This document shows, piece after piece, positions 18,264 to 31,680 of a stretch of 34,509 nucleotides of DNA (position 1 is its first letter; the number at the start of each line of letters is the position of its first letter). The stretch is from Pseudomonadota bacterium (lineage in GTDB: Bacteria > BMS3Abin14). The stretch spans positions 1 to 34,509 of the forward strand of contig QIEJ01000038.1 of NCBI GenBank assembly GCA_003228585.1, read 5' to 3'. The translations under genes and the position numbers were made by a program. The notes under the pieces were generated by a model. It was not told where the DNA came from. It saw nothing but the letters and a program-made list of their open reading frames with translations, and did not search any database.

Positions 18264-19166
18264 ATGGAATATTTCTTCGAACTCTTTCTCAGTGGATTGA
18301 CGCGTGGATCCATCTATGCCCTGATTGCCCTCGGGTATACGATGGTTTACGGTATCATCGAGCTGATCAATTTTGCCCACGGTGAGATCTATATGATCGG
18401 TGCCTTCACGGCACTTATCGTGGCAAGTCTTCTCACCATGGCCGGCTTCAAGGGGTTGGCGGTCCTGGCTCTGGCAATGGTGGTGGCTGTCATCTACGCG
18501 GGTGCCTACGGGTTCACCGTTGAGAAGATCGCATACAGACCCCTGCGCCAGGCCCCGAGGCTCAGCCCGCTTATCAGCGCCATCGGCATGTCGATCTTCC
18601 TTCAGAATTACGTTCTTCTGGCGCAGACCTCGGACTTTCTGCCCTTCCCCTCCCTGATTCCCGAATTCGGTTTCATGAAACCATATGAACATATTTTCAG
18701 TTCTTCCCAGGTGGTTATTGTGACGGTTACAACTGTATCCATGGTTGCCCTTACCTGTCTAATAAAGTTCACACGCATGGGAAAGGCGATGAGAGCCACG
18801 GCCCAGGACAGGACGATGGCCATGCTGGCAGGGATCAACGTCAACCGGATTATTTCCACAACATTTATTATCGGGTCGACCCTGGCGGCTGTGGGCGGCG
18901 TTCTCATCGCCTCTCACATAGGCCAGATCAACTTTTACATTGGTTTTATAGCAGGGATCAAGGCGTTCACCGCGGCGGTCCTGGGCGGTATAGGATCGGT
19001 ACCCGGCGCCGTTCTGGGTTCTCTAGTGCTCGGCTGGACGGAGGCTTTCGCCACCGGTTACATCTCAAGCGACTATGAGGATGTGTTTGCCTTCGGGCTC
19101 CTTGTGCTCATCCTCATTTTCCGGCCGGAGGGGATCCTCGGAAAATCCAGGTCACAGAAGATCTGA
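18264..19166 (+). CDS. livH: Branched-chain amino acid ABC transporter permease LivH
   Basis: LivH is one of the two integral membrane subunits of the LIV-type importer. The 300-residue protein is strongly hydrophobic, with about eight helices. It carries the family N terminus LTRGSIYALIALGYTMVYGIIELINFAHGEIYMIGAF, the EAA-loop-like segment KAMRATAQDRTMAMLAGIN, and the C-terminal block IKAFTAAVLGGIGSVPGAVLGSLVLG ending in LILIFRPEGILG. The ATG at 18264 has no strong Shine-Dalgarno; upstream AGATTACAGATCTCT gives little help. It is separated from livK by a strong terminator and from livM by a ~160-bp palindromic element, both unusual inside a liv operon. Confidence 0.95.
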   Translation: MEYFFELFLSGLTRGSIYALIALGYTMVYGIIELINFAHGEIYMIGAFTALIVASLLTMAGFKGLAVLALAMVVAVIYAGAYGFTVEKIAYRPLRQAPRLSPLISAIGMSIFLQNYVLLAQTSDFLPFPSLIPEFGFMKPYEHIFSSSQVVIVTVTTVSMVALTCLIKFTRMGKAMRATAQDRTMAMLAGINVNRIISTTFIIGSTLAAVGGVLIASHIGQINFYIGFIAGIKAFTAAVLGGIGSVPGAVLGSLVLGWTEAFATGYISSDYEDVFAFGLLVLILIFRPEGILGKSRSQKI

Positions 19167-19173
19167 TCTCATT

Positions 19174-19333
19174 ATTGACAGTGTCGCAAAAAGTCCGAGC
19201 GGGACTTTCTGCTCCTCGGAAAGCGAAAAGCGCGGTTTTCGCTTTCCTTACAGATCAATGACTTGCATCATCGGTCATTGATCTGGGCACCCCATGCGGG
19301 GTGCATTGATGACTTTTTGCGAAGTCATCATTA
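19174..19333 (+). repeat. Nested palindromic element between livH and livM
   Basis: The outer parts TTGACAGTGTCGCAAAAAGTCC and GACTTTTTGCGAAG match, in inverse orientation, the compact ~50-bp element at 28796-28845. Here about 100 bp of extra sequence separates them. That insert contains three perfect hairpins: 19218-19229/19236-19247 (12 bp), 19252-19262/19274-19284 (11 bp) and 19287-19293/19298-19304 (7 bp). It has no coding capacity and looks like a MITE- or REP-like element. Confidence 0.8.
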
Positions 19334-19360
19334 ATTTGACGAAAAACATGAAAAATCGTT

Positions 19361-20539
19361 GTGAAAGATCTTAAACAGTCCATATTCCTCTCTATCTGGT
19401 TCATACTCCTCACCTTTCCCATCATGGTGATCAGGGTGAATACCGTGGAGAAGACCGTCCATTGGAGGTGGGCCAATATGGTTTACGTCGGGGCAGGGGT
19501 ATTCATCCTCTCCTACCTCTGGCGGTACATGATGGACCGAAAGGAAAAAAAGCCCGAGGACAGCGGCAAGGTTACCTGGAACCAGAAGCTCATCGCCGAA
19601 AAGAAATACCTGATACCTTTCTGCGGGACCGTCCTCTTGCTGGCAGCGATTTTTCCATTAGTTGTTTCCGATTACCGCGTTAATGTAATGACCAATGCGA
19701 TGATATATGTCGTTCTGGGACTCGGACTGAACATCGTCGTCGGGCTTGCGGGGCTGCTGGATCTGGGTTATGTGGCGTTTTATGCAGTAGGGGCCTACAC
19801 CTATGCCCTTTTGAATTATCATTATGGTGTGGGATTCTGGATCGCATTACCGCTGGGAGCGGTTGTGGGGGCCGTCTTCGGGATCCTGCTGGGCATCCCC
19901 GTCCTGAGGTTGAGGGGGGACTACCTTGCCATTGTAACACTGGGTTTTGGCGAGATAGTCCGCCTGATCCTCGAGAACTGGAACAAGTTCTCCTTTGGGC
20001 CCAGTGGTATCGCCAATATTCCCATGCCCTCGTTCTTCGGCCTGGTATCAAATCGAAGCCAGGGACTTGTCTTGATGTACTACCTGATGATAGCCCTCGC
20101 GATATTCACGATCTTTGTTGTGGAACGTCTGCAGAACTCGCGGTTGGGACGATCGTGGCTGGCGCTTCGTGAGGATGAGATCGCCTGTCAGGCAATGGGC
20201 ATCGACAAGATGAAAACCAAGCTCGCCGCCTTTGCCCTCGGCGCCACATGGGCCGGGATGATGGGCGTGATCTTCGCCGCCAAAACCAGGTTCATTAACC
20301 CGGCCAGCTTCACTTTCCTGGAATCCGCCATCATCCTCTCCATCGTCGTTCTGGGTGGGATGGGGTCCATTCTGGGTGTCATTCTCGGGGCCTTCATCCT
20401 CATCCTGCTGCCCGAGGAGCTTCGAGCGTTCTCGCAGTACAGGATGTTGATCTTCGGTGCGGCCATGGTCCTGATGATGGTCTTCCGGCCACAGGGGATC
20501 ATCTCCAACGTGCGGCGCACATATGAATACCATGAATAA
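19361..20539 (+). CDS. livM: Branched-chain amino acid ABC transporter permease LivM
   Basis: LivM is the second membrane subunit of the importer. The 392-residue product has an extra N-terminal region of about 85 residues with two hydrophobic segments, as in E. coli LivM. The permease core then follows: VMTNAMIYVVLGLGLNIVVGLAGLLDLGYVAFYAVGAYTYALL, GIPVLRLRGDYLAIVTLGFGEI, SWLALREDEIACQAMGID and SAIILSIVVLGGMGSILGVILGA, ending VFRPQGI. The start is GTG 19361; no ATG is in frame upstream and no good Shine-Dalgarno is visible, perhaps because the palindromic element ends only 28 bases before it. The 3' end overlaps livG by 17 bp. Confidence 0.94.
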   Translation: MKDLKQSIFLSIWFILLTFPIMVIRVNTVEKTVHWRWANMVYVGAGVFILSYLWRYMMDRKEKKPEDSGKVTWNQKLIAEKKYLIPFCGTVLLLAAIFPLVVSDYRVNVMTNAMIYVVLGLGLNIVVGLAGLLDLGYVAFYAVGAYTYALLNYHYGVGFWIALPLGAVVGAVFGILLGIPVLRLRGDYLAIVTLGFGEIVRLILENWNKFSFGPSGIANIPMPSFFGLVSNRSQGLVLMYYLMIALAIFTIFVVERLQNSRLGRSWLALREDEIACQAMGIDKMKTKLAAFALGATWAGMMGVIFAAKTRFINPASFTFLESAIILSIVVLGGMGSILGVILGAFILILLPEELRAFSQYRMLIFGAAMVLMMVFRPQGIISNVRRTYEYHE

Positions 20540-28437: not shown

Positions 28438-28795
28438 GAGTTTATTCTTGACCCCAAGACTGCCACGTCCCCTTCGATCCCGCCGGCGGCGGAACTCAGG
28501 GACCTCGCAGTTACGGGCACTTTGGACACAAAGATGGCACAATAGAAAACGGGCGTGAGGAAAAATTTGTTTCATGCAAAGCACGCAAAGAAGGGCAATT
28601 CATTATTCGACTAATCCAGGGTTAAGGTTTCCTTGGCGTCCTTTGCGGCTTGAGTGACCGGAGGGAACGGGCGTGAGAAAATTTTGGATCTTGGGTCTTG
28701 GATTTTGGATAAGAAATCTATCTGGAATCTGAAATTTGGAATTTGCAATCCGGAATCCAGCAGGTACTCATTTCCCGGATGAACCAGGACTTAAA

Positions 28796-28845
28796 GTTGA
28801 TGGCTTCGCAAAAAGTCCCGCCTGGACTTTTTGCGACACTGTCAA
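28796..28845 (-). repeat. Compact TCGCAAAAAGTCC hairpin element
   Basis: TCGCAAAAAGTCC (28806-28818), loop CGCCT, GGACTTTTTGCGA (28824-28836): a perfect 13-bp stem. Flanks GTTGATGGCT and CACTGTCAA match the outer ends of the larger element at 19174-19333 on the opposite strand. Confidence 0.75.
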
Positions 28846-28891
28846 AGTTAAAGGTTGAAATAGTGCTCCAAAATATTGTATTCGTTAAAAC

Positions 28892-29789: not shown

Positions 29790-29864
<75 letters not shown>

Positions 29865-31605: not shown

Positions 31606-31680
31606 GGCGCCATCGCCAAGTGGTAAGGCAGAGGCCTGCAAAGCCTTTATTCCCCGGTTCGAATCCGGGTGGCGCCTCCA
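31606..31680 (+). tRNA. tRNA-Cys (anticodon GCA)
   Basis: A 75-nt cloverleaf with encoded CCA. Acceptor GGCGCCA pairs with TGGCGCC and the discriminator is T, as expected for tRNA-Cys. The D arm includes CGCCAAGTGGTAAGGC, the anticodon loop CTGCAAA gives GCA, and the T arm CCCGGTTCGAATCCGGG is complete. It has a strong terminator directly downstream. Confidence 0.96.

Follow-up and report, generated by a model that had tools for sequence, protein, structure and literature searches.

A hairpin-rich element between livH and livM is very probably a member of a non-autonomous DNA transposon family with long and short forms

The element in the livH-livM spacer

The window, by which we mean the whole stretch of 34,509 nucleotides that was analysed, carries two permease genes of the liv type in the same orientation, and the spacer between them is occupied by a compact palindromic element that starts with TGACAGTGTCGCAAAAAGTC and finishes with GACTTTTTGCGAAGTCATCA. 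The features of this region are as follows.

18264-19166, forward strand: upstream livH-like permease gene, with a BPD_transp_2 match
19172-19175: left flank TTAT, a decayed 4-bp target-site duplication that matches TTAA at 3 of 4 positions (row L001)
19176-19330, forward strand: full-length copy of the element, very probably a MITE; 155 bp, with TGA...TCA ends
19176-19195, forward strand: left terminal inverted repeat, TGACAGTGTCGCAAAAAGTC
19186-19212: hairpin H1, arms 19186-19196 and 19202-19212, 10 of 11 positions paired
19203-19212, forward strand: direct repeat copy 1, GACTTTCTGC (GACTTTTTGC in most copies), left boundary of the proposed deletion
19218-19247: hairpin H2, 12-bp stem, 19218-19229 and 19236-19247
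19251-19285: hairpin H3, 12-bp stem, 19251-19262 and 19274-19285
19287-19304: hairpin H4, 7-bp stem, 19287-19293 and 19298-19304
19307-19330: hairpin H5 at the right end, 9-bp stem, 19307-19315 and 19322-19330
19311-19320, forward strand: direct repeat copy 2, GACTTTTTGC, right boundary of the proposed deletion, 108 bp from copy 1
19311-19330, reverse strand: right terminal inverted repeat, reverse complement TGATGACTTCGCAAAAAGTC
19331-19334: right flank TTAA, the duplication partner of the left flank
19361-20539, forward strand: downstream livM-like permease gene with a GTG start at 19361 and a BPD_transp_2 match

With its 155 bp, the element stays below 500 bp and has no room for a transposase or another long ORF. 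Its ends are inverted repeats of about 20 bp, TGANNNNNTCGCAAAAAGTC, which have a 13-bp core in common, and its G+C content is 50%, that of the window being 53%.

A preliminary description of this DNA had reported a hairpin-rich palindromic element at this place. The element is real and lies far beyond chance: the predicted fold reaches -78.8 kcal/mol (z -9.3), none of 200 shuffles was as good, the fold of the other strand is equally strong (z -9.4, 0 of 200 shuffles), and 12 further full-length copies exist. The stems had been given as 12, 11 and 7 bp; the 12 and the 7 are borne out, and the second is 12 bp long. The right arm had also been thought to be broken by an insert, which is not the case: each end folds by itself, the left one on its own inner arm and the right one as a separate hairpin. 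The pairing in H5 and the pairing of one end with the other are mutually exclusive.

Copies, target sites and history

We searched the genome from which the window comes with a 175-base query. The search gave 49 rows, some of them second matches to the inner palindrome, and led to 13 full-length copies, the window copy included, with about 15 short forms beside them; the other 12 full-length copies showed 85-94% identity. Scans for the ends, allowing up to 2 or 3 mismatches, found 32 left and 36 right ends in the same genome. The proposal that the element is dispersed, for which a genome search for both forms had been recommended, is thereby upheld, as many copies of each form are present. An alignment of the 13 full copies with 18 left-end partial or short copies showed a single architecture between unrelated flanks.

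The host range was examined in 61 genomes, comprising the own genome, 11 of the same family and 49 others. The element was matched in the own genome and in 10 of the 11 relatives, often in many copies (up to 326 first-look candidates in one relative), and in 2 of the 49 others, where the matches reached only an E value of about 1e-3. G001, the sole family member with no element match, is given as a complete genome. A search of the named collection with the exact hairpin pattern returned 91 stretches; the hosts among the best 80 of these 91 are the MAGs SZUA-178, PFL40, ZodW_Metabat.265, bin582 and CSMAG_1715, together with Desulfurivibrio sp. AMeS2, which belongs to a different phylum (Thermodesulfobacteriota at NCBI) and in whose family the element occurs in only 2 of 27 genomes. 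The exact pattern had no match in viral contigs, and no element match was found in plasmids and phages.

Flanking sequences were compared for 87 full copies, a set that omits copies with no recognisable ends, with fewer than 12 flanking bases or with duplicate flanks. An exact 4-bp target-site duplication was found in 42 of them (mean 3.8 and maximum 8 in 200 shuffles) and was absent from the other 45. Duplications of 5 bp gave a slight signal (6 vs a shuffled mean of 0.5), and lengths of 2, 3 and 6-9 bp gave none in the 87 copies. The Desulfurivibrio copies have clean duplications, as judged by eye. The target resembles TCA-ANNT-TGA (TCAANNTTGA-like sites), the duplicated 4 bp being ANNT, and its consensus looks like two element ends brought together with 4 bases between them. 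In relatives, copies are found head to tail with a few bases separating them, as at L106, L107 and L140.

A comparison of livH-livM spacers in related genomes had likewise been recommended, a structured RNA conserved there being the finding that would have spoken against a mobile element. LivM relatives at 78-82% identity are encoded by G003, G007 and G005. In all three of these genomes with a close LivM the spacer is short and element-free, the 160 bp being absent; therefore, the window insertion is lineage-specific among the sampled genomes. We also built a tree of 62 copies, taken from 13 genomes. Its deep branches are weak, but it placed 11 of the 13 own copies in one clade (99/98) and the 8 AMeS2 copies with the one G063 copy in another (100/98). 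The Desulfurivibrio clade groups with the two G002 copies (96/86) and falls within the range of variants found in the window's family. The genome label changes 22 times on the tree, vs 45 times for shuffled labels. This pattern agrees with bursts of copying inside single genomes and with passage of the element from one phylum to another.

Because there are many copies, inverted ends, 4-bp duplications and empty livH-livM spacers, we conclude that the element is very probably a copy of a non-autonomous cut-and-paste DNA transposon (MITE). A transposase from elsewhere in the genome, now or formerly, would recognise the ends of about 20 bp (TGANNNNNTCGCAAAAAGTC) and insert the element at TCAANNTTGA-like sites with duplication of the central 4 bp; the ends and the duplication are observed, and the transposase is postulated from them. 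The window copy would have landed between livH and livM after its lineage split from the sampled relatives, and its 4-bp duplication would since have begun to decay.

By an ORF heuristic, 60 of the 67 copies with enough flank are intergenic, 4 lie inside an ORF and 3 are unclear. The intergenic copies include 37 between co-directional genes, 14 between divergent and 9 between convergent ones, the corresponding background being 403, 99 and 98 gene pairs. No promoter-like site was found in the element, and terminator-like sites numbered one, with 0.8 expected. Given these counts and sites, we rate an effect of the element on livM expression as possible but unsupported; the most likely outcome for the liv operon is a longer spacer of little consequence.

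Long and short forms of the element

The window holds a second, compact copy, with the following features.

28794-28797: AAGT, left copy of the 4-bp duplication
28798-28844, reverse strand: short form, 47 bp
28845-28848: AAGT, right copy of the 4-bp duplication

Two tRNA genes identified with Rfam, at 29790-29861 and 31606-31677 of the window, lie downstream of it. The outer ends of the long element had been described as equal to those of the compact one in opposite orientation, and this is correct: the left 38 bases match 28808-28845 of the reverse strand at 92%, and the 21-mer of the right end is found again at 28797-28817 of the reverse strand, both copies being one mismatch off the common end. 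Bar a few substitutions, the short form is the long form minus 108 bp between the direct repeats GACTTTYTGC. The 15 short forms of the own genome were counted by eye from 32 rows (11 exact), with a both-strand mix and 8 long or truncated rows dropped; 6 of the 15 have an exact 4-bp duplication and 2 an exact 5-bp one. In AMeS2 the short forms have other junctions, which in three cases lie at CCATGG-like repeats. One AMeS2 short form is perfectly palindromic.

Since the same long element is cut short at different points in two lineages, deletion is favoured, and with it the 'fuller ancestor' that was one of two options offered in the preliminary description. We therefore favour the view that the short form is the remnant of a deletion that ran from one 10-bp direct repeat to the other, the junction being observed and the route deduced from it. 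Slippage or recombination between the GACTTTTTGC direct repeats, perhaps helped by the intervening hairpins, would remove 108 bp from full copies, and the product would be a short form of about 47 bp such as that at 28798-28844. The duplications flanking short forms fit jumping by the short form itself as well as an origin in place, because both leave a duplication.

The other option was that a small hairpin element had gained a 100-bp insert carrying three hairpins. That such insertions can happen is suggested by L138, where one copy is nested inside another, and by other Desulfobacterota, where the same ends surround unrelated interiors; together these cases imply that interiors can be exchanged. 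However, the three-hairpin core is no peculiarity of the window copy. It stands at the same place in all full-length copies from 11 genomes of the window's family and from Desulfurivibrio, so that the core of the long form is constant across the genera sampled. Deletion between direct repeats, moreover, explains the short form exactly, and the short forms of the two lineages differ in their junctions. We regard an origin of the long form by insertion as highly improbable.

Further size variants were seen. At L032 (G000:C14:3775-3803) the element is reduced to about 26 bp, apparently by a further deletion, this time at AAGTC repeats; the flanks of this ultra-short form match. A perfect palindromic short form of the 50-bp class lies at L101 557-605 in AMeS2; it has two left ends, with AAAA on both sides. 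Composites of about 270 bp in two relatives (L138 4225-4502, L137 3880-4166 and L154 6249-6512) have the core inside another element, and the similar junctions of several of them mean that one nested form may itself have multiplied.

Hairpin pairing, mobilisation and relation to known elements

For covariation we aligned 49 sequences, the window copy and 48 of 55 representatives, 7 being omitted as divergent or as loci already represented. Standard pairs make up 92.2% of the pair cells in the 49 copies. Changes on both sides of a pair were found in 21 of 54 pairs (shuffled mean 10.4; 5-13 pairs in a slid-partner control) and in 115 cells (shuffled mean 37.4); near-copies inflate the numbers of cells, and the structural model was derived from the same sequences, but the hairpin covariation is real, and the compensatory changes exceed what the interior of a passive MITE would require. 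The local hairpins fit better than end-to-end pairing, because both-side changes are fewer between the ends (2 of 12 pairs, vs 4 of 11 in H1 and 4 of 10 in H5).

Mismatches over the five hairpins comprise 82 G.U and 85 A.C cells. As decay after insertion also equalises the two, the count was repeated for mismatches common to at least 4 copies, which were still balanced (4 G.U vs 8 A.C types). In a small tRNA control, using fixed positions in two stems of 17 tRNAs, we counted 14 G.U and 0 A.C. The balance in the element means that nothing points to an RNA function of one strand; the pairing seems to have its importance, or its origin, in the DNA itself. We also considered template switching as the source of the compensatory changes. 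The sign of this process is loop inversion (PMC8604942), which did not show up here, with 0 inverted pairs among the 116 H1 loops (43 kinds) and 71 H3 loops (51 kinds) examined. Homogenisation of the arms with no inversion is a possible source.

These results bear on the idea that the element is a structured RNA of the liv transcript, such as an mRNA stabiliser, attenuator or riboregulator, that was dispersed by chance. Such an RNA would account for the fold, very stable on either strand, and for the compensatory changes in the hairpins. A one-strand RNA should, however, strongly favour G.U over A.C, and it would not lead one to expect the same spacer to be element-free in three relatives. Orientation relative to co-directional genes shows no preference (21 same, 16 opposite), the single terminator-like site compares with the 0.8 expected, and Rfam has no entry for the element. 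Cis-regulatory RNAs are recognised by conservation at orthologous sites and by RNA-type variation of pairs, and we found neither. This origin appears very unlikely to us.

Transposases of the DDE_Tnp_1, rve and Y1 families were sought in G000, G003, G005 and G061. None of the 13 PF01609, 4 PF00665 and 7 PF01797 matches in these four genomes is bounded by element ends; of the three families, only DDE_Tnp_1 is matched in the own genome, twice. In 805,531 bases of loci, 21 pairs of inward-facing ends stand 0.4-4 kb apart. ORFs in seven of these intervals and in L205, inspected by eye with no family search, included no recognisable transposase; those in the inspected intervals read as cobT, ruvC, purM, gap/pgk and similar genes. 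An autonomous IS with the same ends was not found with the three transposase families in the four genomes or in the 805 kb of loci.

A further possibility is a REP-like element that a Y1 transposase (RAYT or IS200/IS605) moves on single-stranded hairpins. The element is palindromic and intergenic, its short hairpin derivatives resemble REP units, and Y1_Tnp genes are present in G003, G005 and G061. The own genome, however, has no Y1_Tnp match, and the 7 found elsewhere are not bounded by element ends. Neither 4-bp target duplications nor inverted ends are expected from the Y1 mechanism, and the element has both; the clear duplications largely refute this explanation, to which we give almost no credence. 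REP/RAYT systems are defined by the lack of a target duplication and by a Y1 transposase partner. The short form does resemble a single REP hairpin, but the element has target duplications and inverted ends and no matching Y1 transposase, which sets it apart.

ERIC/IRU elements are about 130 bp long and form one long imperfect palindrome. Like the present element they are intergenic, palindromic and found in many copies in one bacterial family, but their ends are of 7 bp with TA termini, as the part of PMC2229807 that deals with them states, whereas here there are five separate hairpins. The Correia/NEMIS elements of Neisseria, in the account given in that part of PMC2229807, are similar in length, have inverted ends and fall into long and short classes of 155 and 107 bp; they carry TA at their termini, whereas the present element has 4-bp ANNT duplications at TCAANNTTGA-like sites. 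Bacterial MITEs, according to the passages of PMC10969869 that describe them, are shorter than 500 bp, have inverted ends of 4-30 bp and direct repeats at younger copies, are mostly intergenic and form stable stem-loops. Size, ends, duplications, intergenic sites and stem-loops are all those of the element. Compared with typical MITEs as portrayed there, it is not AT-rich, no parent IS was found for it in the search described above, and it has separate hairpins with compensatory change.

Ends like those of the element reach beyond it. Among 395 Desulfobacterota genomes, 10 match the AMeS2 element, 8 of the 10 over only a short stretch, mostly the ends. Three loci from other Desulfobacterota (L251 1502-1656, L252 1502-1635 and L254 1502-1654) have the same 20-bp ends, spaced about 135-155 bp apart, around unrelated and partly palindromic interiors; the interior at L252 holds the palindrome GTCATTGCGAGGAGTGAAGCGACGAAG. 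This suggests one end-specific mobiliser that serves several interiors, and thus a superfamily with exchangeable cores. One may go further and propose that the hairpins are not passengers but are kept paired as DNA, equally on both strands, because a putative transposase or a replication-coupled excision step requires the element DNA in folded form. In this view a single transposase, acting in the window's family as well as in Desulfobacterota, would recognise nothing but the 20-bp ends and move any palindromic interior that they enclose, and the elements would make up a modular superfamily of exchangeable hairpin cores. We put this combined proposal forward as a speculation that is rather unlikely to hold in full.

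A full-text literature search for CGCAAAAAGTC returned no relevant title, and literature on transposable or repeat elements of Desulfurivibrio and on bacterial MITEs gave no title pointing to the element. By the features set out in those passages of PMC10969869, it is a MITE, apparently of a new family. The analysis defines a mobile-element family that seems to be unnamed and gives its ends, its target site, its size classes and the range of its hosts. In the named collection the host lineage is represented mainly by metagenome assemblies. The family appears to show transfer between two phyla and a clear route from long to short forms, and its hairpins, with compensatory changes and no sign of RNA function, are a warning for covariation-based RNA discovery.
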